Assembly: GCA_003222395.1 (NCBI GenBank)
Contig: QHWB01000040.1
Coordinates: forward strand, 322,488-386,487
Reading direction: 5' to 3'
Source: Acidobacteriota bacterium
GTDB taxonomy: Bacteria > Acidobacteriota > Vicinamibacteria > Vicinamibacterales > CAVVIG01
DNA length: 64,000 nucleotides
Under the pieces are notes generated by a model, which saw nothing but the letters and a program-made list of their open reading frames with translations, searched no databases and was not told where the DNA came from. Positions within the stretch are counted from its first letter, which is position 1, and each line of letters opens with the position of its first letter. A program made the position numbers and the translations under genes. Of the stretch, positions 881 through 40,762 are shown piece by piece.

Positions 881-1597
881 CTAGCTCCGACACGCCGTGT
901 ACAGGATGACGGATCCGAACGTGAGTGGGACGGGACGCACCTCCATAAAACCGTTTTGTCGAAGAAGTTTCACAAACTCATCCGGCGACACGAATGCATC
1001 TATCGAGGTCTGCAGGTATCGATACGCCCCGTCGTGTCGCGAGATCGCGCGCCCGATTCGCGGTAGCAGGTGCCGGAGGTACCAGAGGTACGCCTGGCGG
1101 AAGCCAGGCGTGCGCGGAATTGCGAACTCGAGAATCGCGAGGCGGCCGTGTGGTTTCAGGACGCGATGGATCTCCCCGCATGCCGCCGGCACGTCGTCGA
1201 CGTTGCGGATGCCGAAGCCGATCGCGACGGCATCGACCGAAGCGTCGGCCACCGGCAAGCGCGTCGCGTCGCCTCGGATCAGCGCGATCGCACGCTGGAG
1301 GCGCCGCGCGCCGACCTTTCGATTGCCGATGACCAGCATGGCGGCGGCAAAATCGACGCCGACCACGCGCGCGGCGCCCGGACGCGCGCGCATCGCGGCG
1401 ATGGCCAGGTCGCCGGTACCCGTGCACAAATCGAGCACGCGCTCGCGGCCGGTCAGGGCCAGCGAGGCCACTGCGCGCCTGCGCCACCGCCGATCGATGC
1501 CCGCGCTCAGGAAGTGATTGAGGAAGTCGTAGCGGCCCGCGATCGCGTCGAACATCCCGGAGATCCGCGCCGGCGATTTCGAAACGTCATCGGCCAT
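881..1597 (-). CDS. ubiE: UbiE/MenG: demethylmenaquinone C-methyltransferase
   Basis: 238 residues. SAM-dependent class I methyltransferase catalysing the last step of menaquinone synthesis, methylation of the demethylated naphthoquinone. The N-terminus (FDAIAGRYDFLNHFLSAGID) is the UbiE signature, and the SAM-binding glycine loop VLDLCTGTGDLAIA follows at about residues 55-68. Length fits the family (230-250). Its start overlaps the end of the UbiA-type prenyltransferase by 11 nt, so it is the last gene of the menaquinone operon. In a futalosine pathway this enzyme acts on the prenylated, decarboxylated intermediate made by the neighbouring genes. Confidence 0.93.
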   Translation of the reverse strand: MADDVSKSPARISGMFDAIAGRYDFLNHFLSAGIDRRWRRRAVASLALTGRERVLDLCTGTGDLAIAAMRARPGAARVVGVDFAAAMLVIGNRKVGARRLQRAIALIRGDATRLPVADASVDAVAIGFGIRNVDDVPAACGEIHRVLKPHGRLAILEFAIPRTPGFRQAYLWYLRHLLPRIGRAISRHDGAYRYLQTSIDAFVSPDEFVKLLRQNGFMEVRPVPLTFGSVILYTACRS

Positions 1598-2453
1598 ACA
1601 GCGCGACGACGAGTATCAGCAGATAGAGGAGCCCGACGTACCCGTTGAGATCGAACGCGCGCCTGACCTGCGACAGATCGTCGGCGCGTACGAGCGACTG
1701 CTCGTACGCGAGCAGTGCGGCCACGATCGCGACACCGGCCAGATAAATCGTTCCGAGCGGCGCCACGAACGCGAGCCCGACGAGGCAGGCGATGGCAACC
1801 GCGTGCATGACGCGCGAGATCGCCAGCGACGCGGCGACGCCGAATCGGACCGGGATCGAGCGCAGGCCGTGCGCGCGATCGAACTCGAGGTCCTGACAGG
1901 CGTACATCACGTCGAAGCCGCCGACCCAGCTGCCAATCGCAACGGCGAGCAGCCATGGCTCCCATCCTCCGCGCGCGCCAACGGCGAGCCACCCGCCGAC
2001 CGGCGCGACGGCCATCGAGAGGCCGAGAAACAGCTGCGTCCATGTCGTATAGCGCTTCGCGAGCGAATACCAGAAGACGATCGCCAGCGCCACGGGCGAT
2101 AACGCGAGACACAAGGGATTCAGCTGCCACGCCGCGAAGAGGAAGACCGCCGACGCGATCGTCACGAACGCGATCGCCTCGCCGATCGTCATCGCGCCGC
2201 GCGGCAGCTCGCGCGCCGCCGTGCGCGGGTTGAGCGCGTCCATCCGCGCGTCGACGAGCCGGTTGAACCCCATCGCCGCGCTGCGCGCGCCGACCATCGC
2301 CACGACGATCCACAAGACGATGCGCCAGGTGATTGGCGTGTGCTGCGCGGCGAGGAGCGCGCCGGCGAGCGCAAACGGCAGCGCGAACACCGAATGGCTG
2401 ACACGCACGAACGAGGCGTACGTTCGGAGTTTTGGAACGAGCACGGGTGTCAC
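1587..2453 (-). CDS. mqnP: UbiA-family prenyltransferase (MqnP-type)
   Basis: 288 residues starting at GTG (complement of 2451-2453). That GTG overlaps the upstream stop as GTGA, which decided the start; an open frame continues far upstream but is antisense-like. It is an integral membrane prenyltransferase with about eight helices. Both Asp-rich Mg/diphosphate motifs are present: NRLVDARMD (NxxxDxxxD) and DLEFD in YACQDLEFDRAHG. Placed among mqn genes it most likely attaches the polyprenyl tail to 1,4-dihydroxy-6-naphthoate (MqnP). A true UbiA with 4-hydroxybenzoate as substrate is unlikely here, but sequence alone does not exclude it. Confidence 0.85.
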   Translation of the reverse strand: MTPVLVPKLRTYASFVRVSHSVFALPFALAGALLAAQHTPITWRIVLWIVVAMVGARSAAMGFNRLVDARMDALNPRTAARELPRGAMTIGEAIAFVTIASAVFLFAAWQLNPLCLALSPVALAIVFWYSLAKRYTTWTQLFLGLSMAVAPVGGWLAVGARGGWEPWLLAVAIGSWVGGFDVMYACQDLEFDRAHGLRSIPVRFGVAASLAISRVMHAVAIACLVGLAFVAPLGTIYLAGVAIVAALLAYEQSLVRADDLSQVRRAFDLNGYVGLLYLLILVVALYGR

Positions 2454-3712
2454 GCTTCGATCCACCGCAACTGATCGGGCTGAATGCCGCTCACCAGATA
2501 TTCTTCCACATCGTCGATCATCGGCGGGAGAGCGACGGCGAGCAGTCGGGCGCGCTTTCCGGCTTCGATGGTGCCGTAATCGGCGTCGAAGCCGAGCGCA
2601 CGGGCGCCGACGATGGTCGCGCTCGCGAGAAGCGACGTCGCGGGGACGCGCGGCGCCAGCGCGCGCATCGTGGCGAGCTCGGCGAACACGTTGAGGTCGG
2701 GCGCGCTCGCGAGGCTGTCGGTGCCGACGGCGACAGCGACCCCGGATCGATAGAAGTCTTCGAGCGGTGGCGTCCCTGCGCCCGTATGGCCGTTGCTCCG
2801 CGGACAGGTGACGAGCGTGGCGCCGCGCTCCGCCAGGCGCCGCAGATCGCCGGTGGTCATCTGCACGCCGTGAACGACCAGCACGCGCCGATCGAGGAAG
2901 CCGCACTCTTCCAGAAACTGCACCGACGTGCCGCCTGGAGGCGACCACGCGGGATTCCAGACGCCGAGCTCCTCGAGCAGCGCACGCCAGGGCCCCCGTC
3001 CGGATCGCATGAACTCGACTTCCTCGGCCGATTCGGACACGTGCACGCTGCACGGTGCGAACGGATGCCGATCGATCGCCTGCCGGATGAACCGGAACAC
3101 CAAAGGCGCGACGGAATAGGGCGCGTGCGCCGCCAGCGTCGGGATGATGCGATCGCTGCGATCCTCGTCGGACCGCAGCGCTTCGATTTCGCGCTGCGCG
3201 CCGTCGACGAACGCCTCCGGATCGTCGGCGTTGAATCGAATCAGCTCGTAGAAGACGACAGCCGCCGACAGCGGACCGCGCGCGAGCGGCTCGTAGGTGG
3301 CGAGCGTATTGCTGATGTCGCCGACGATCGCGGTGCCGGTGGCGGTCGCTTCGACGATCGCGTCCTCGATCGCCTGCGTGATCTGGCGATCGCGCGGGTC
3401 CGGATGCTGTCGCCGCGCCGCCATCACCCCGCGGATCCAGGTGACGAACTCGGATGCCGGCGGCACTTCATCGCGCAGATACGACAGTTCGAGGTGCGTG
3501 TGGGCGTTGACGAGACCCGGCAACAGCGCGACGCGGCCGAGATCGACTTCGGGCTCGCTGCGGTTGGCCGATTGCCGGCCGACCGCGACGACACGACCCC
3601 GATCGACGGCGACCCACCCGTCGCGAATCGGCGACTCGGTGATGGGCAGAACCCAGGAGGCGTGGTACCGAATCAATGAGCGGAGCGGGGCGGCGGGGTC
3701 CCCGCGGAGCAT
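2450..3712 (-). CDS. mqnX: Amidohydrolase, probable aminofutalosine deaminase (MqnX-like)
   Basis: 420 residues from ATG at 3712. A TTG at 3676 overlapping the mqnC stop (TTGA) would give 408 residues and fits the usual family start (LIRYHASWVLPI) better. Metal-binding motifs of the amidohydrolase superfamily are visible: NAHTHLE (about 70), HAPYS, HVSESAEE and GTDSLAS. MqnX deaminates 6-amino-6-deoxyfutalosine to futalosine, the alternative to direct hydrolysis by MqnB. Assignment rests on superfamily motifs plus its position between mqnC and the prenyltransferase. Another adenosine or S-adenosylhomocysteine deaminase-type activity is possible. It overlaps mqnC by 40 nt (or 4 nt with the TTG start). 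Confidence 0.75.
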   Translation of the reverse strand: MLRGDPAAPLRSLIRYHASWVLPITESPIRDGWVAVDRGRVVAVGRQSANRSEPEVDLGRVALLPGLVNAHTHLELSYLRDEVPPASEFVTWIRGVMAARRQHPDPRDRQITQAIEDAIVEATATGTAIVGDISNTLATYEPLARGPLSAAVVFYELIRFNADDPEAFVDGAQREIEALRSDEDRSDRIIPTLAAHAPYSVAPLVFRFIRQAIDRHPFAPCSVHVSESAEEVEFMRSGRGPWRALLEELGVWNPAWSPPGGTSVQFLEECGFLDRRVLVVHGVQMTTGDLRRLAERGATLVTCPRSNGHTGAGTPPLEDFYRSGVAVAVGTDSLASAPDLNVFAELATMRALAPRVPATSLLASATIVGARALGFDADYGTIEAGKRARLLAVALPPMIDDVEEYLVSGIQPDQLRWIEA

Positions 3713-4941
3713 GTCCGGGGCGCAGCGGTCTCCGGATTGGGAATGACGCGAAGCTGCTTGCCCGCGCGGCTGCGCGCTTCGTAGTCCGCCAGCTCGTCGG
3801 GCACGTGCGTGTCGCCTGCGGCGCGAGCGGTGGCGAGCTCCAGCATGCGGGGCACGTCGCGGTCGCGGAAGATCGGATCACCGAGGATTTCGTAGTGCAT
3901 GTTCCGCCGCTTCGGGATGAAGCCGGCGTCCTCGACGTTGCGGACGATCTCGACTTCGTCCATGCAGTAGCTCGCGCCGGCGGCGCGGACGACATTCTCC
4001 TCGATCATCACACTGCCCATGTCGTTGGCGCCGTACGCGAGGCTCAGTTGTCCCACCTTCCCGCCCTGCGTGACCCACGAAGCCTGGAGGTTGTCGAAGT
4101 TGTCGAGCACGATGCGCGCGATGGCAAGCGTCCGGAGGTAGTCGACGCCGGTGGCCTCCGTTCCCCCCAGCTCGGTGTTCGCCGGCTGATAGCTCCACGT
4201 GATGAACGCGGTGAACCCGCCGGTCTCGTCCTGGAGCTCACGAAGGCGCAGCAGATGCTCGATCCGTTCCTCGTCGGTCTCGACCGTGCCGTACATCATG
4301 GTCGCGGTCGTGCGGAGACCCGCGCGGTGCGCGTGTCGCATGACGGCGAGCCATTCGTCCGCCGTCGCCTTGCCGTAACAGTGCAGCAGCCTGCGGACGC
4401 GGTCGACGAGGATTTCAGCGCCGCCGCCGGGAACGCTGTCGAGTCCGGCGGCGATCAACCGATCGATGACCGCAGGCACCGGCAACTGCGACAGCCGAGA
4501 CAGATGGATCACCTCGGGCGGCGAGAGCGCGTGCAGTTTGAAGGCGGGATATCGCTGCTTGACTGCGCGGAACAGATCTTCGTACCACGCCAGGGGCAGG
4601 TCAGGATTGTGACCGCCCTGCAGCAGCAGCTGCGCGCCGCCGACGGCAATCGTCTCGTCGATCTTGCGAAACAACTCCTCGAAGCCGAGTACGTATCCCT
4701 CCGAGGAACCGACGGAGCGATAGAACGCGCAGAAGTTACATTTCGCAACGCAGATGTTCGTGTAGTTGACGTTGCGATCGACGATGTACGTGACGATGCG
4801 GTCCGGGTGCTTGTGCGCGCGGACGTGGTCCGCAAGGCGTCCGAGCCGCGGCGTCGGCGCACGTCGATACAGCTCGAGCGCCTCGGCGCGATCGATGCGC
4901 GCTCCAGCCAGGGCTTTCGACGCAATCGCCTCCAGATCCAT
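3673..4941 (-). CDS. mqnC: Cyclic dehypoxanthine futalosine synthase MqnC
   Basis: 422 residues. Radical SAM enzyme that cyclises dehypoxanthine futalosine in the futalosine menaquinone pathway. The [4Fe-4S]-binding CxxxCxxC is present as CVAKCNFC at about residue 68, preceded by NVNYTNI, typical of MqnC. LLLQGGHNPDLPLAWYEDLF and LDSVPGGGAEI are conserved family blocks. The C-terminal 30 residues are Pro/Ser-rich and overlap the next gene. It starts one base after the mqnA stop, so translation is probably coupled. Confidence 0.95.
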   Translation of the reverse strand: MDLEAIASKALAGARIDRAEALELYRRAPTPRLGRLADHVRAHKHPDRIVTYIVDRNVNYTNICVAKCNFCAFYRSVGSSEGYVLGFEELFRKIDETIAVGGAQLLLQGGHNPDLPLAWYEDLFRAVKQRYPAFKLHALSPPEVIHLSRLSQLPVPAVIDRLIAAGLDSVPGGGAEILVDRVRRLLHCYGKATADEWLAVMRHAHRAGLRTTATMMYGTVETDEERIEHLLRLRELQDETGGFTAFITWSYQPANTELGGTEATGVDYLRTLAIARIVLDNFDNLQASWVTQGGKVGQLSLAYGANDMGSVMIEENVVRAAGASYCMDEVEIVRNVEDAGFIPKRRNMHYEILGDPIFRDRDVPRMLELATARAAGDTHVPDELADYEARSRAGKQLRVIPNPETAAPRTCSAGTPPPRSAH

Positions 4942-4942
4942 G

Positions 4943-5776
4943 TCAATAAAACTGCGGCGCTGCCGTCCGTTCCACGACGCCCGCTTCAGCCGCGTAGCGG
5001 AAAAAGGCTTCGAGACCTGCCTGTTCGTCGTCTCCGAGATAGTACTTGATATTGTCGCGCAGGTACCGCGCGCCGATCGCCTGCCGTTCCTGATTCGGGC
5101 CGACGTACTCTCGCGCGAGCTCCTCCGGCCGGCCGATGCCCGCGTCGCGCGCCCGCTGGAGCGCCTCGACGTCGGCTGCAGTCAGCGCGCTCGGCCGCCC
5201 GGCCCAGAACGCGTAGACGAACGGTAGCCCGGTCAATTTCTTCCAGGCGTGGCCGAGGTCAATTTTTTCGATTCCGCGGGCATTCTCATTCGTGGCCTCC
5301 GGCTTCCAGCGGACGTCGCCTGCATCTAGAAACAACGCGTTGTCGCCGATGAGGAGCGCCGCGTCGCAGTGCCGAAGCATGTCGTCCAGGTCGGGTCCGC
5401 GCGGCTCGAAGCGCGGCTCGATCTCGAACAGCCGCGCGCACAACACGCGCGTGAGCGCGACCGACGTGCGCGAGCTCGTATCCATCGCGATCGAGCGCAC
5501 GTCGGCCATCGGCCTCTTCGTGAAGATGGCCACCGATGCGACGGGACCGGCCGACGCAATCGCGAGATCCGGCACGATCCGATACGGCCCGCCGCGCAGG
5601 TATTCGATTGAAGGGATGAGGCCGACGTCGATCGCGTTCTCGTGCAGCAGCCGCGCGCATTCCGACGGGATGTCGTAGCGGACGTCGAATCGCGGCGATC
5701 GCTCGAGGCCGTACACAAGCGGGACGGCATTCAGATAGCCCACGGCACCCAGCCGCACGCGGTCCGACGAGGTCAC
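4943..5776 (-). CDS. mqnA: Chorismate dehydratase MqnA
   Basis: 277 residues, GTG start overlapping the upstream stop as GTGA. MqnA has a periplasmic-binding-protein fold and dehydrates chorismate to 3-enolpyruvylbenzoate, the entry step of the futalosine pathway. The N-terminus RLGAVGYLNAVPLVYGLE and the blocks CARLLHENAIDVGLIPSIEY and SIAMDTSSRTSVAL match the family, as does the length (270-290). The tail contains WKKLTGLPFVYAFW and a helical REEL-type segment, also usual. Confidence 0.94.
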   Translation of the reverse strand: MTSSDRVRLGAVGYLNAVPLVYGLERSPRFDVRYDIPSECARLLHENAIDVGLIPSIEYLRGGPYRIVPDLAIASAGPVASVAIFTKRPMADVRSIAMDTSSRTSVALTRVLCARLFEIEPRFEPRGPDLDDMLRHCDAALLIGDNALFLDAGDVRWKPEATNENARGIEKIDLGHAWKKLTGLPFVYAFWAGRPSALTAADVEALQRARDAGIGRPEELAREYVGPNQERQAIGARYLRDNIKYYLGDDEQAGLEAFFRYAAEAGVVERTAAPQFY

Positions 5777-6660
5777 CGCGAGCGCTCGTCCTGAGTCGTG
5801 AGCTCGTCGACGGCACGAAGAACGTCCCAGCGCCCCGTGCGCTGGACCGGCTCGTAACCGGCGGCGTGAATGTTGCGGCGGATCTCCTCGAGCGGCGAGC
5901 GGCGGTAGCCCTGCGACACATCATCGTCTGCGGAGACGCCGTCCACATCGTCGGCGCCGACGGTGAGCGCCACCTGCGCGAGCTTCGGTCCGTACAGCGA
6001 CCAATCGACCTGAATCGAGGGGACGTTGTCGGCTACGATGCGCGCGAGGGCGACGCGCCTGATGTCTTCGTAGCCGGTCGTCGGCACGGCCGGGTTGACG
6101 CGGCGTGGGAGCGGCGCGAACGCGCGTATCACCGCGACCGCTCGCTGCAGCTCCGCGACCGTTTTCAACTGCGACATCGGATCGGTCGACTGCGGCTGAT
6201 GAATGGTGACGCGCGCGAGTGCGAGGCCGGCGATGTTCACTTCCTCGATCGATCGTCGGGCGTCGCGCAGGCGGTCGATCGGCGCTTCAGAGACGATCTC
6301 GAGCCCCGCCGCCCGCAGCTGCTCGAGCAGCGCGCGCAGCGTGACGCCTTCGCGTGCGGCGAGCTCCTCGAGATCCGCGAGCGAGAAGCCGGACACGGCG
6401 ACACCGTTGGCGGATGCGGCGACTTGCGCGACGCGATCGGCGGCGGCCGCGCGTGTCGGCGGCGCGCCGACGATGCGCGCTTCGCCGGCCGCCGGCGCGA
6501 TGGCGATCGGCGCCGATGGATCGGCCGCAATTTCGGCGACGCGCACGAACGTCGCGTTCGTCCCGTGGCGCTGCCGGCGCAGGCCGTCGGCGATGGCGCC
6601 GAGGCTGATGATGTCGTGCGACGCCGCGAGGCTCGTGAGCTCCTGTTCCGTAATCGTCAT
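5773..6660 (-). CDS. MqnE-like protein lacking the radical-SAM cysteines
   Basis: 295 residues from ATG at 6660. The C-terminal half resembles aminofutalosine synthase MqnE: RRVALARIVADNVPSIQVDW, then YGPKLAQVALTVGADDVDG, then IRRNIHAAGYEPVQR. The N-terminus (LGAIADGLRRQRHG) also aligns with MqnE. Where MqnE carries NPTNVC...CxxC this protein has an Ala-rich segment, and it contains no cysteine at all, so it cannot ligate a radical-SAM cluster. It is first in the overlapping run with mqnA and mqnC. A genuine MqnE would have to be encoded elsewhere. The start is preceded by four 24-bp repeats whose AAAGG lies 10 nt before the ATG; a TTG at 6774 would translate the repeats as ARLK/NGSRY units. 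Confidence 0.8.
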   Translation of the reverse strand: MTITEQELTSLAASHDIISLGAIADGLRRQRHGTNATFVRVAEIAADPSAPIAIAPAAGEARIVGAPPTRAAAADRVAQVAASANGVAVSGFSLADLEELAAREGVTLRALLEQLRAAGLEIVSEAPIDRLRDARRSIEEVNIAGLALARVTIHQPQSTDPMSQLKTVAELQRAVAVIRAFAPLPRRVNPAVPTTGYEDIRRVALARIVADNVPSIQVDWSLYGPKLAQVALTVGADDVDGVSADDDVSQGYRRSPLEEIRRNIHAAGYEPVQRTGRWDVLRAVDELTTQDERSR

Positions 6661-6756
6661 GTAGCGCGAGCCTTTCAGGCGAGCGTAGCGCGAGCCTTTC
6701 AGGCGAGCGTAGCGCGAGCCATTCAGGCGAGCGTAGCGCGAGCCATTCAGGCGAGC
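6661..6756. repeat. Four tandem copies of a 24-bp REP-like unit
   Basis: Four head-to-tail 24-bp copies at 6661, 6685, 6709 and 6733, sharing the core GCGCGAGCCTTTCAGGCGAG. The last two have ATTC in place of TTTC. Each unit holds a small palindrome (GCCT-TTC-AGGC). The array sits directly before the MqnE-like start. Dispersed copies occur near 25,173, 25,202, 57,108, 57,155 and 60,848. Confidence 0.92.
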
Positions 6757-6775
6757 GTGTCCGCAGCACTTCAAT

Positions 6776-7327
6776 TTACGACGGGGTCGGTCCGAACAAC
6801 AAGCCGAGGACGATCGCGATGGCGATGGCGAGCGACCACCCGAGCACGCACACCGCGGCCGCGCGCGTAGTGCTCGTGTAATCGAGGGCCTGGCGGACGG
6901 CGACGACCGTCGCGACCAGCATCCACACCGCAGTCGCAGCGAACACCGGCACCGTCACGCCCGGCATGATGCCGAATATGCGGAAGAGTCCGGGGGTTGA
7001 CGCGAAACCGATCGTGCGCAGCAGCTCACCGACGTCGACGCGCGTCTGCGGCTCCGGCATCAGGCGCGATCCGATTTCGAACGTGACGAGCGCCCACGCC
7101 GCCCACGCGATGAGCGCGACGGTGCTGATGAACAGGATGTTCGCGAGCGACAGGCCGCCGAGGCCGCGCGCGCCCACGCCGGCCGCGAGGCTCGACATCA
7201 CGACGATGGTCAACGCCTGACCCGTCGCACCGCGATCCGCTTCGACTTCCTCGTAGATCGCCGCGTCGAGCGAAATCGCTCCGATGAGCCGCATGAAGAA
7301 TCCGTTCGTCGCGGATCTGGTAGCCAT
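6776..7327 (-). CDS. YIP1-family membrane protein
   Basis: 183 residues from ATG at 7327 (MATRSATNGFFMRLIGAISLD); an in-frame start farther upstream would add a non-conserved tail. The pattern is typical of bacterial Yip1-domain proteins: a short polar N-terminus, then about five hydrophobic helices (LTIVVMSSLAAGVGA, ILFISTVALIAWAAWALV, GLFRIFGIMPGVTVPVFAATAVWMLV and so on), with the helix-breaking motif RTIGFASTPGLFRI in the middle. Function unknown; probably an inner-membrane protein. It ends two bases before a TTG that could start an extended MqnE-like protein, so the two may be co-transcribed. Confidence 0.75.
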   Translation of the reverse strand: MATRSATNGFFMRLIGAISLDAAIYEEVEADRGATGQALTIVVMSSLAAGVGARGLGGLSLANILFISTVALIAWAAWALVTFEIGSRLMPEPQTRVDVGELLRTIGFASTPGLFRIFGIMPGVTVPVFAATAVWMLVATVVAVRQALDYTSTTRAAAVCVLGWSLAIAIAIVLGLLFGPTPS

Positions 7328-7426
7328 ACCGCTACGGTATGCAAACGGCCTGCTCGATACAAGGTCCTGTGGACTTGCGGCATCCGGCTTCAGCCGGCTA
7401 ACGTGCACGCCTCGCTCACCAGGGCG

Positions 7427-7894
7427 TTATGGTGTGTTCTCGAACACGAGATCGAACGCCGTGTCGCCAAAACCCGGCATTGCGTAAGTGAATTCATAGC
7501 GGCGCGGCAACAGGCTGCTCACGTCGATCCACACGGTGCCGGTCGCTTCGATCTCGGACTGCGGCGACGTCGCGGGCGCGCGAACGCCGCGGACCATCGC
7601 GCCGTCGACGGCGCGAAGGCCGGCGTCGGCGAGACCGCGTGGATCGCCGAGGACGTTGAACAACTGCGCCCGTTCCTGCTCGTCGAGCTGCCGCATGAGG
7701 GCGCCGTGCTTGACGCGCGGTGCCTTGCCGCTCATCGCACGCCCCACCGCGTCGAACGCGCGCGCGATGTCGTCCTCGGTCAGCGGTTCGCTCGCTCTCA
7801 ATCGATCCTTGATCGGTCGGTCTTGGTCGCGACCGCAGGCGGCGGCGACGAGCGCGACGATGAGCAGAGCGGCAAATTCTTTCGTGGCATTCAT
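7427..7894 (-). CDS. Putative lipoprotein of unknown function
   Basis: 155 residues. The N-terminus MNATKEFAALLIVALVAAAC is a lipoprotein signal with a plausible lipobox ending at Cys20, followed by a charged mature start (GRDQDRPIKDRLRA). The mature part has no recognisable catalytic motif; it ends YEFTYAMPGFGDTAFDLVFE. Not recognised as a named family. It lies between the UbiD-type gene and the YIP1 gene on the same strand. Confidence 0.65.
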   Translation of the reverse strand: MNATKEFAALLIVALVAAACGRDQDRPIKDRLRASEPLTEDDIARAFDAVGRAMSGKAPRVKHGALMRQLDEQERAQLFNVLGDPRGLADAGLRAVDGAMVRGVRAPATSPQSEIEATGTVWIDVSSLLPRRYEFTYAMPGFGDTAFDLVFENTP

Positions 7895-7976: not shown

Positions 7977-9425
7977 TCATCGCCGAGGCATCACGCGGTC
8001 GAGAATCGCGTCGGCGCGATGCCGCGCCGCCTCGGTCGTGATCAGACGCGCGGGCCAGTTGCGCGTGTAGCCTTCGGACGCCCATTTCTTCGTCGCGTCG
8101 ATCCCCATCTTTCCGCCGTATGCCGGCAGATCGGCCGCATCGTCGAGATCGTCGACCGGGCCTTTCGTCAACTGGATGTCGCGCAGCGGATCCATGTGCG
8201 TGCCGACGATCCACGCGACCTGGCTCACGTCGTGGACGTCGACGTCGCTGTCGACGACAACGATCGTCTTCGAGAACATCAACTGGCCAAGCCCCCAGAA
8301 GGCATTCATGATCTTGCGCGCGTGGCCGGGGTAGCGCTTGTCGATCGATACGATCACGAGATTGTGGAAGATGCCCTCGGCCGGGAAATGCATGTCGACG
8401 ATCTCGGGCAGCGTCTTCCTGATCATCGGCAGGAAGATCCGCTCGCTCGCGAGCCCGAGGTAGTAGTCCTCCATCGGGGGCACGCCGACGACAGTCGTCA
8501 AATACGTCGGCCGTTTTCGCTGCGTGACGCAGGTGAGATGGAACACTGGAAAGTCGTCGGGCTGCGAATACAGGCCCGTGTGGTCGCCGAACGGTCCTTC
8601 GCGGCGCCGCTCCCCCGGTTCGACGTAGCCCTCGAGCACGATATGGGAGCTCGCCGGCACTTCGAGATCGACCGTCACGCATTTCACCATCTCGATTCGC
8701 CGCCGCGCCAGGAAACCGGCAAGGAGCAGTTCGTCGAGACCTTCGGGCATCGGTGCCGTCGCGCAGTACGGCAGCACCGGCTCGCAGCTCAGCGCGACGG
8801 CGACGTCGAGCCTCCGGCGCAGCCGTTCCGCCACGCGGTAATGCTGCGCGCCGCCCTTGTGTCGCTGCCAATGCATGCCGGTCGACCGGCCGTCGAACAC
8901 CTGCATGCGATACGTGCCGACGTTTCGCATCGCGGTCTCGGGATCCTTGGTGAAGACGAGCGGAAACGTGATGTATTTGCCGCCGTCCTCCGGCCAGCAT
9001 TTCAGGATCGGCAGCGCGTCGAGCGTGCCCTCCCGAGCGACCACCTCGTGACAGGCTGCATCGTTGACCGTCTTCGGCACAAGATCACGAAGGCGTCCGA
9101 CCATCGGCAGCATCTTCAGCGCGTCCATGATGCCGGCCGGCATCTGCGGCGTCATCAGCTCGTCGATCTCGGCCGCGAGATCGTCGAGGGTCTTCACGCC
9201 GAGCGCGAGGCACATCCGCTCGTACGAGCCGTAGACGTTGCTGGCGACCGGCATGTCGTGGCCGGTGGGCGCCTCGAACAGCAGCGCGGGGCCGCCGCCG
9301 GGAGACTTGCAGGCGCGATCGGTCACCGCCGCGATTTCGAGATTCGGACTGACGGGTTCAGTGATGCGCGCGAGCAGCTTGCGTCGATCGAGGTCTGCGA
9401 GGAAGTCGTCGAGATCTGAGTACAT
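7977..9425 (-). CDS. UbiD-family decarboxylase (MqnL-type)
   Basis: 482 residues. UbiD enzymes use prenylated FMN to decarboxylate aromatic acids. The family blocks are present: an N-terminal MYSDLDDFLADLDRRKLLARI, the metal/prFMN region with GTYRMQVFDGRSTGMHW, and the E-R-E-type region EGPFGDHTGLYS. Beside mqnA, mqnC and the prenyltransferase it most likely acts in menaquinone synthesis (the MqnL role) on the naphthoate intermediate. A ubiX-type prenyltransferase that would make its cofactor is not in this window. Length fits the family (about 480-500). Confidence 0.88.
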   Translation of the reverse strand: MYSDLDDFLADLDRRKLLARITEPVSPNLEIAAVTDRACKSPGGGPALLFEAPTGHDMPVASNVYGSYERMCLALGVKTLDDLAAEIDELMTPQMPAGIMDALKMLPMVGRLRDLVPKTVNDAACHEVVAREGTLDALPILKCWPEDGGKYITFPLVFTKDPETAMRNVGTYRMQVFDGRSTGMHWQRHKGGAQHYRVAERLRRRLDVAVALSCEPVLPYCATAPMPEGLDELLLAGFLARRRIEMVKCVTVDLEVPASSHIVLEGYVEPGERRREGPFGDHTGLYSQPDDFPVFHLTCVTQRKRPTYLTTVVGVPPMEDYYLGLASERIFLPMIRKTLPEIVDMHFPAEGIFHNLVIVSIDKRYPGHARKIMNAFWGLGQLMFSKTIVVVDSDVDVHDVSQVAWIVGTHMDPLRDIQLTKGPVDDLDDAADLPAYGGKMGIDATKKWASEGYTRNWPARLITTEAARHRADAILDRVMPRR

Positions 9426-38963: not shown

Positions 38964-39902
38964 TCATCGCACCGGCATCGCCCCGAAGTGCTGCTCGAAC
39001 CGATTCTGGAATTCCTCCCATGTGTACGAGTGGCTCAGGCCGCCCAGATGCTCGAGTACGTACGCGGCGGCGACGCTGCCCATTCGCGCACACGTCTCAT
39101 ATGGAAGGCCCAGCACGATCCCTTTCATCAGGCCGCCGCGGTACGCATCGCCGACGCCCGTCGGATCGACGATGCGGTGCGGCGTCACGGCCGCGACATC
39201 GATCCATTCGTCCTCGGTAGCGACGGTCGAACCGTGTTCGCCGCGCGTGATGACGAGCGCGCGTGCCTCGCGAAGGATGTCGGCCTCGCTCAGACCGGTC
39301 TTCTGCCGCAGCAGCTCCAGCTCGTAGTCGTTGACGATCACGATTGCCGCGCCCGACACGCCGTCGCGCAGGTCGTCGCCCGACATCCGCGCGCATTGCT
39401 GACCGGGATCGAAGATGAACGGAATGTCGAGCGTGCGGCACTCCTCGGCGTACTGCACCATCGCGCCGGGATCGTTCGGCGCGATGATCGCGAGACCGCA
39501 GTCGTGGACGGTCCGAAACGAGAGCTGCCCGGCATCGGCCATGGCGCCCGTGTAGAACGACGCGATCTGATTGTTGTCCTGATCGGTGCTGCAGAAGAAA
39601 GATGCGCAGAACTTGCCGTCGATTTCGACGACCAGCGACGTATCGATGCCCGCCGCCTCGAGCCAGCGCCGGTACTCGCCGAAATCCTCGCCGGCCGTCG
39701 CCATCAGCAGCGGACGCTCGCCGAGCAGCGCGAGCGTGTACGCGATGTTCGGCGCGCAGCCGCCGCGCCGCTTCACCATCGAGTCGACGAGGAAGCTGAG
39801 ACTGACGCGGTTCATGTGCTCCGGCAGGAAGTGCTCGGTGAATTTGCCGGGGAACGACATCAGATAGTCGTACGCGATCGATCCGGTGACGACCGTGTTC
39901 AT
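38964..39902 (-). CDS. PfkB-family nucleoside/carbohydrate kinase
   Basis: 312 residues from ATG at 39902, overlapping the MTA phosphorylase stop as ATGA. Ribokinase fold with GGCAPNIAYTLALLGERPLLMATAGEDFGEY near the N-terminus and the catalytic-Asp motif DPTGVGDAYRGGLMKGI near the C-terminus. The TGVGDA variant and the SYTWEEF tail resemble adenosine/nucleoside kinases of the PfkB family. With MTA phosphorylase it may recycle adenine nucleosides or methylthioribose-type products; the substrate is inference. Confidence 0.85.
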   Translation of the reverse strand: MNTVVTGSIAYDYLMSFPGKFTEHFLPEHMNRVSLSFLVDSMVKRRGGCAPNIAYTLALLGERPLLMATAGEDFGEYRRWLEAAGIDTSLVVEIDGKFCASFFCSTDQDNNQIASFYTGAMADAGQLSFRTVHDCGLAIIAPNDPGAMVQYAEECRTLDIPFIFDPGQQCARMSGDDLRDGVSGAAIVIVNDYELELLRQKTGLSEADILREARALVITRGEHGSTVATEDEWIDVAAVTPHRIVDPTGVGDAYRGGLMKGIVLGLPYETCARMGSVAAAYVLEHLGGLSHSYTWEEFQNRFEQHFGAMPVR

Positions 39903-40762
39903 TTCATGTACTTGCCGACGATGGGCGCGAGCTCGCGTTTCGTCCGGTCCGGCACCTGTTCGGGCCGCGTGATGATGGCGGTCGCCAGAGCATCCTTGCA
40001 CGCGCACGTGCGCGGCCCCGTGAGCCGTCCGACGGCTTCGGCAATCGTCTTCTGCGCCGTCGCGGCGTTCTGCATCAGGTTGGCGATGATCAGATCGACC
40101 GTCACCGAGTCGTGATCCGGGTGCCAGCAGTCGTAGTCGGTCACCAGCGCCAGCGTCGCGTAGCAGATCTCCGCCTCGCGCGCGAGCTTGGCTTCCTGCA
40201 GGTTCGTCATGCCGATGACGTCCATGCCCCACGCGCGATACAGCTTCGATTCGGCGAGCGTCGAGAACTGCGGTCCTTCCATGTTCACGTACGTGCCGCC
40301 GCGATGCACGGTCGCGCCGACGGCGGATGCCGAGTCGGCTGCGACTGTGGCCAGATCGCCGCACACGGGATGGGCGAACGCCACGTGCGCGACGAGGCCG
40401 CGGCCGAAAAACGTGCTGATGCGTCCTCTCGTCCGATCGAAGAACTGATCCGGCACGACGATGTCCAGCGGCTGGTATTCGTGCTTCAGGCTGCCGACGG
40501 CGCTCGCCGAGAGGATGCGCTCGACGCCGAGCACCTTGAAGCCATAGATGTTCGCGCGGAAATTGAGCTCGGACGGCAGAATCCGGTGGCCTCCGCCGTG
40601 CCGCGCCAGGAACGCGACCCGCTGACCGCGCAGCGTCGCGAGAATGTACGGACCTGAGGGATCGCCGAACGGCGTTTCGATCTTCTTCTCTTCGCGGTCG
40701 GTCAGCTCCGCCATGTCGTACAGACCGCTGCCGCCAATGATTCCGATGGTCGCAGTTGGCAT
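39899..40762 (-). CDS. mtnP: S-methyl-5'-thioadenosine phosphorylase
   Basis: 287 residues. Cleaves MTA with phosphate to adenine and methylthioribose-1-phosphate (methionine salvage). Motifs: IGIIGGSGLYDM, ETPFGDPSGPY, FLARHGGGHRILPSELNFRANIYG, the substrate-site GGTYVNMEGPQFSTLAESKLYRAWGMDVIGMTNLQEAKLAREAEICYATLALVTDYD. Length fits MTAP (about 280-290). Purine nucleoside phosphorylase activity cannot be fully excluded. It is co-transcribed with the PfkB kinase. Confidence 0.93.
   Translation of the reverse strand: MPTATIGIIGGSGLYDMAELTDREEKKIETPFGDPSGPYILATLRGQRVAFLARHGGGHRILPSELNFRANIYGFKVLGVERILSASAVGSLKHEYQPLDIVVPDQFFDRTRGRISTFFGRGLVAHVAFAHPVCGDLATVAADSASAVGATVHRGGTYVNMEGPQFSTLAESKLYRAWGMDVIGMTNLQEAKLAREAEICYATLALVTDYDCWHPDHDSVTVDLIIANLMQNAATAQKTIAEAVGRLTGPRTCACKDALATAIITRPEQVPDRTKRELAPIVGKYMK

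Follow-up and report, generated by a model that had tools for sequence, protein, structure and literature searches.

A cluster-free protein of CofH type encoded upstream of mqnA and mqnC in Vicinamibacterales (Acidobacteriota)

The closest described systems are two radical-SAM enzymes of the futalosine pathway: MqnE, aminofutalosine synthase (TIGR03700; PDB 6xi9/6xig, Pedobacter heparinus), and MqnC, cyclic dehypoxanthinyl futalosine synthase (TIGR03699). The name 'mqnEAC operon' is given to a locus of four genomes in a passage of a published genome comparison (PMC4746308). An active enzyme paired with an inactive related subunit that is needed for activity is found in the eukaryotic tRNA-guanine transglycosylase (QTRT1/QTRT2; PMC6165067). 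The latter system belongs to an unrelated family and is used here as a working analogy only: the complex was shown there, whereas for the protein described below it is presumed. A description of this protein was not found among the open-licence PubMed Central papers listed in the searches. Its kind is known, i.e. a pseudoenzyme derived from a known enzyme family; what is unusual is its conservation throughout an order and the independent, parallel loss of the same site in another lineage.

The gene under study (the subject) is located at 5773..6660 on the minus strand of the window, i.e. the whole stretch of 64,000 nucleotides that was analysed. It encodes a cluster-free MqnE/MqnC-type protein of 295 aa that contains no cysteine. 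The open reading frame is real: the start codon is at 6660 and the stop codon ends at 5773. The segment YGPKLAQVALTVGADDVDG lies within the C-terminal half of the protein. All the neighbouring genes given here are also on the minus strand. The downstream gene is of mqnA type (4943..5776; PF02621, 4.5e-57), and its GTG start overlaps the subject stop by 4 bases. It is followed, one base past its end, by mqnC (3673..4941), which encodes a full radical-SAM enzyme with the cluster motif (TIGR03699, 492 bits; cut-off, 428.1). The overlapping run with mqnA and mqnC reported in the first-pass annotation is thus confirmed. The position at the head of the operon, reported at the same time, is wrong: a menaquinone-type UbiD decarboxylase gene (7977..9425; TIGR03701, over cut-off) and two small genes are located upstream of the subject. 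These two genes, lying between ubiD and the subject, encode predicted proteins of 210 aa (6776..7408) and 155 aa (7427..7894), neither of which matches a family in Pfam or NCBIfam; the 210-aa protein is taken, by eye only, to be Yip1-like. A 24-bp tandem repeat (6661-6758; 4.1 copies, 98% match) ends directly before the subject start codon. Downstream of mqnC are found an amidohydrolase gene, possibly encoding an aminofutalosine deaminase (2450..3712; its top-scoring models, TRZ/ATZ hydrolase and aminofutalosine deaminase family, do not reach their cut-offs), a gene assumed to be of UbiA type in the 3' portion of the ORF 1587-3053 (judged by eye), and a putative UbiE/MenG-type methyltransferase gene that closes the run (881..1597; translation judged by eye).

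Over its whole length, the subject is homologous to two radical-SAM enzymes, MqnE and MqnC, with a similarity far beyond chance. In a Pfam scan, the CofH_C domain (PF19288) was found at 4.5e-11 (43.1 bits; gathering threshold, 27). The radical SAM domain PF04055 was not found, CofH_C being the only Pfam match up to E 1, whereas the same scan detected it in the MqnC of the window at 2.5e-21. The NCBIfam models of MqnC (6.4e-26, 91 bits vs a cut-off of 428.1) and MqnE (2.3e-18, 66.2 bits vs 434.55) both match the subject far under their curated cut-offs, and the MqnC model outscores the MqnE model. Comparison with solved MqnE by phmmer gave 3.2e-8. Profile-profile comparison, using 50 members of the family, aligned nearly the whole length (E 2.5e-34 to MqnE, 4.1e-31 to MqnC). 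The C-terminal half had been said to read as aminofutalosine synthase; homology of CofH/MqnE type is supported. According to structure prediction (20 sequences; best of five models: pLDDT 87.6, pTM 0.86), the radical-SAM-type barrel with its N-terminal helices is kept. Among solved structures, MqnE is closest to this model (Z 27.4, 283 residues, 2.8 A; next, PylB, 19.4). A second model, led by a divergent member (pLDDT 91.3), also has MqnE as best match (Z 26.5, 295 residues, 3.1 A; next, 19.1); the two models have different lead sequences and a largely shared alignment. The check proposed earlier on similarity and barrel therefore came out in favour of both: the profiles are significant to MqnE and MqnC, and the predicted fold is closest to MqnE.

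The features shared with MqnE are the predicted barrel, the homology over the full length, the N-terminal LGxLA..R...HG motif, the residues E60/L184/D240, the C-terminal W...Q....G..D block and the operon slot, which is the same as in several other Acidobacteriota families. Those shared with MqnC are the full-length homology, Q217 and the operon. The subject differs from each of the two enzymes by the lack of the CX3CX2C loop, of the following helix and of the PGGGAE motif, and is roughly 60-80 residues shorter. It also lacks the MqnC residues P, W and G, which align with its G33, L184 and D240.

The cluster motif CX3CX2C is absent from 53/53 aligned family members (own copies L002-L004, the fragment L072, sequences shorter than 240 aa and identical duplicates were left out). 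In the profile-profile alignment, the deletion in the subject falls on the cluster loop and the helix after it. A short Ala/Pro-rich stretch (about residues 43-60) replaces the CX3CX2C segment, so that the loss of the cluster site and its Ala-rich replacement are as first described. The statement that the protein has no cysteine holds for the 295-aa subject but not for the family, which is cluster-free rather than cysteine-free: 24 of the 53 aligned members lack Cys, and the Cys positions of the remaining ones are scattered. The PGGGAE-type SAM motif is degenerate: columns 124, 125 and 127-129 are each retained by no more than 9% of 22 members. MqnE and MqnC have 46 conserved columns in common, of which the family retains 17 (same 22 members): 4/26 in the middle (SAM/cluster) part, where the alignment spans a deletion, vs 13/20 in the two terminal parts (Fisher p 0.0008). 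Identity in the C-terminal part is 35% to MqnE and 31% to MqnC (MqnE vs MqnC, 36%); in the middle part, it is 18% to the enzymes (MqnE vs MqnC, 44%).

The strongest conservation of the barrel is found in its C-terminal half, presumably the substrate side, as general knowledge of the fold suggests. Nineteen columns are invariant in 50 of the 53 aligned members, including E60, D199, R207, W220, Q229, D238, D240 and R274. Other residues (R62, D129, Y197, R253/R254), conserved among the family members, occur seldom or not at all in MqnE and MqnC. These charged or polar residues could equally form a new active site, the subject then being a neofunctionalised enzyme that acts on an intermediate of the futalosine pathway by a different, non-radical reaction in its cluster-free barrel; retention of E60, D199, R207, W220, Q229, D238 and D240 is consistent with such an enzyme, which is the chief alternative to the explanation preferred below but is considered unlikely in view of the gene content given further on. 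The conservation of the presumed substrate side would also suit a metabolite sensor or regulator, which would adjust pathway flux on binding a quinone precursor or an intermediate and would form no stable complex with MqnC. The 4-base overlap of the subject gene with mqnA goes in the same direction. No DNA-binding or signalling domain was detected in the subject by Pfam, which argues against such a sensor.

A copy of the cluster-free protein was found at E <1e-40 in 50/60 relatives, home genome (that of the window) included, with the subject as query; one copy is partial (G028). A 61-residue fragment is present in an additional one of the 60 (G006). Within Vicinamibacterales, the protein is found in 137/162 genomes, most matches covering nearly the full profile (seven are clear in part of it only, some of them at contig ends), and MqnC is over cut-off in 134/162. 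Both proteins are found in 131 genomes, the cluster-free protein only in 6, MqnC only in 3 and neither in 22 (n=162; Fisher p 9e-19, genome relatedness ignored). In the three genomes with MqnC only, either the contig ends within mqnA (G002) or the assembly is fragmented (G433 and G513). Two copies of the cluster-free protein were detected in G458 (contigs C233 and C89), which may be an assembly mixture.

Both genes are on one contig in 125/131 genomes; they are on the same strand with the cluster-free protein upstream in 125/125, and within 5 kb in 124. Only 45-77 nt separate the profile matches of the two proteins in three genomes (G001, G018, G432), leaving no room for mqnA between them. Co-inheritance with mqnC, even where mqnA is not in between, points to the enzyme itself and makes the sensor or regulator distinctly improbable. 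In a pattern test of the overlap with mqnA, only 8/36 starts were recognised, and 7 of these 8 overlap or are at most 20 nt apart; no conclusion is drawn from this test. In four genomes, the PF02621 matches of mqnA are split in two pieces, as if an insertion were present: both pieces share the same open frame in G010, G016 and G023 but occupy two frames in G013.

When 396 genomes drawn from the phylum were scanned (E up to 1e-20), the whole-profile matches outside the order were, among the matches listed, three proteins of family f24. A separate scan of named genomes gave 19 loci, whose titles are acidobacterial except for one titled Acidimicrobiia. The record concerned (L041, VFZL01000010.1) carries an acidobacterial operon.

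The dN/dS ratios (Nei-Gojobori) are 0.09-0.37 in 14 congeneric pairs, two rows of which are shared, so that independence is incomplete. The lost catalytic motifs and the high divergence from the enzymes (long branch) might suggest a decaying, functionless relic of a duplicated gene. Such a relic is contradicted by the selection and conservation results (dN/dS, presence in 137/162 genomes of the order, 19 invariant columns in 50 members) and is hardly credible. The subject thus combines the predicted retention of the fold with loss of the catalytic site and purifying selection, the features of a pseudoenzyme derived from a CofH-type enzyme. It is, with very little doubt, a conserved cluster-free protein of CofH type that is under selection.

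The home genome encodes a full-length MqnE, scoring above the curated cut-off, on another contig, which also carries a gene for a second PF02621 protein, a candidate MqnD; the search for a complete MqnE, proposed as a check with the first observation of the gene, was therefore positive. True MqnE with an intact motif occupies the slot of the subject (mqnE-mqnA-mqnC) in three f16 genomes, of the same class, and in one f65 genome. Its gene immediately precedes mqnC in families f54, f86 and f52 (one genome each). The four published genomes with an mqnEAC operon belong to the Firmicutes. This slot is not universal, since mqnC is within the fetched flanks in only 7/31 fetched true-MqnE loci outside the order, and since one genome of the same class (G417, family f17) has a true MqnE without mqnC in the fetched flanks.

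Three residues nearly fixed in the family (E60, L184, D240) are present in MqnE and absent or rare in MqnC; one (Q217), also nearly fixed, is common to MqnC only. The discriminating columns are mixed (mean over 19 columns: 24% MqnE-type vs 20% MqnC-type). In a tree of 86 rows, the long branch of the cluster-free family arises at the midpoint root. In a tree of 75 rows, from which the f24 cluster-free rows, the MqnE-like row P0003 and two divergent rows of the subject family were dropped (281 shared columns), it is placed beside MqnC (SH-aLRT 95). In the AU test, grouping of the family with same-class MqnE (p 0.56) or with Vicinamibacterales MqnE (p 0.51) was not rejected. Because the placement is unstable with 281 shared columns, the trees were set aside for ancestry. 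Descent from MqnE rather than MqnC is likely according to the gene position and E60, L184 and D240. The initial term 'MqnE homologue' is kept for homology to the CofH/MqnE type; as to descent, the AU test does not decide between MqnE and MqnC, and the MqnC model gives the higher score.

The same three residues would fit a partner of the separate full MqnE, i.e. a hetero-oligomer of that enzyme with its own paralogue and not with MqnC. An MqnE-type gene was found in 20/20 relatives with a fetched locus, in addition to the full MqnE of the home genome. However, MqnE is encoded far away, and four genomes with an MqnE-like gene and no MqnC over cut-off (G329, G015, G022, G047; the last two fragmented and <90% complete) also lack the cluster-free protein. 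Partnership with MqnE is on this evidence very doubtful.

The explanation preferred here, although held tentatively and at slightly less than an even chance, is that the subject is a cluster-free pseudoenzyme formed in place, which now serves another enzyme, most likely MqnC, as a ligand-binding subunit or as a partner without catalysis of its own. The CofH-type copy that became the subject would most likely be the MqnE of an ancestral mqnE-mqnA-mqnC operon. This copy would have lost the iron-sulfur loop and the SAM site in place, aminofutalosine being made by the separate full MqnE. The remaining barrel would have been kept by selection as a non-catalytic partner, probably in complex with the neighbouring MqnC, possibly also with MqnA or MqnE. 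Its conserved C-terminal half (strands 6-8) may hold a pathway intermediate or shape the partner enzyme. Its origin from MqnE, its association in a complex, the binding of a ligand and the lack of own catalysis are inferred. The linkage with MqnC could follow simply from membership of the same operon. Outside Vicinamibacterales, MqnE and MqnC function in the absence of the cluster-free protein, which counts against a partner role. The first-pass annotation regarded the gene as a catalytically dead paralogue retained in the operon: the cluster site is indeed lost, the gene is retained in the operon and a true MqnE is encoded elsewhere, but the lack of catalysis is deduced from these features. 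The scaffold, regulator or new activity suggested for it has the same conjectural status.

Under automatic annotation, such a gene could be mistaken for mqnE or mqnC or receive no name. Should the protein prove to be an essential helper, then in this widespread soil order the futalosine pathway would be a multi-protein assembly that could not be rebuilt from the known enzymes alone.

A second in-place loss of the cluster is found in f24 and concerns MqnC. Eighteen f24 genomes carry a cluster-free protein (L175-L192, L245), mostly of about 290-320 aa, the least typical being that of G310. MqnC is over cut-off in none of these 18. The protein branches with true MqnC of the same family in the 86-row tree (SH-aLRT 100), and, by eye, the flanking genes of L245 are common to L246 and L247, which are true MqnC loci. 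Like the subject, it is a CofH-type protein that stands where the true gene would and no longer has the cluster loop. Unlike the subject, it derives from MqnC, its SAM region is less degenerate and it co-occurs with another radical-SAM MqnC-like protein. The latter is found in all 18 genomes (about 300-317 bits to the MqnC model), has CX3CX2C in 10/10 fetched sequences (L235-L244) and is absent from two f24 genomes with true MqnC; the association thus opposes 18/18 genomes with cluster-free MqnC to only 2 genomes without it. This additional protein may have taken over the MqnC reaction.

An MqnE-like protein of another genome, G232 (L169:382-1539; P0003 from 496), has its first motif Cys replaced and a degenerate SAM motif, and is encoded directly upstream of mqnC; no other MqnE-type match was found in this genome among the matches listed (E up to 1e-25).

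Extended to the three cases (MqnE slot in Vicinamibacterales, MqnC of f24, MqnE of G232), the proposal would be that the futalosine pathway of Acidobacteriota repeatedly turns a CofH-type radical enzyme into a cluster-free subunit; each such protein would be the obligate non-catalytic half of a heteromeric radical-SAM complex, binding unstable intermediates or handing them on. This generalization is speculative and rather unlikely to hold. To our knowledge, obligate non-catalytic halves of this type are described in no other bacterial radical-SAM pathway. With two independent in-place losses of the cluster in one pathway, the evolution of radical-SAM pseudoenzymes would become directly testable on pairs of active and inactive relatives.

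No futalosine hydrolase (MqnB) reaches the cut-off in the home genome, leaving a pathway step open there that a neofunctionalised subject might fill. However, candidates for MqnA, MqnE, MqnC, MqnD and the deaminase are already present in this genome, and genomes with the cluster-free protein may either have or lack MqnB. MqnB is over cut-off in 20/60 relatives within the order vs 6/80 Acidobacteriota genomes outside (hand-picked, one to eight per family, from those with an MqnE-type match); any match with E up to 1e-3 was found in 34/60 and 38/80, respectively. MqnB is thus missing more often where the cluster-free protein is absent, so the protein does not complement that gap, and gene complementarity gives no support to a role of the subject as a replacement for futalosine hydrolase. 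With MqnB over cut-off in so few genomes, many of them have no nucleosidase assigned to this pathway. Two other genes of the home genome were recorded: a methylthioadenosine phosphorylase gene at 39899-40762 of the window (TIGR01694, over cut-off) and a gene for a nucleosidase close to the MTA/SAH type (L256, G000:C34:317300-319100), which is just below the TIGR01704 cut-off and has, by eye, an apparent signal peptide.
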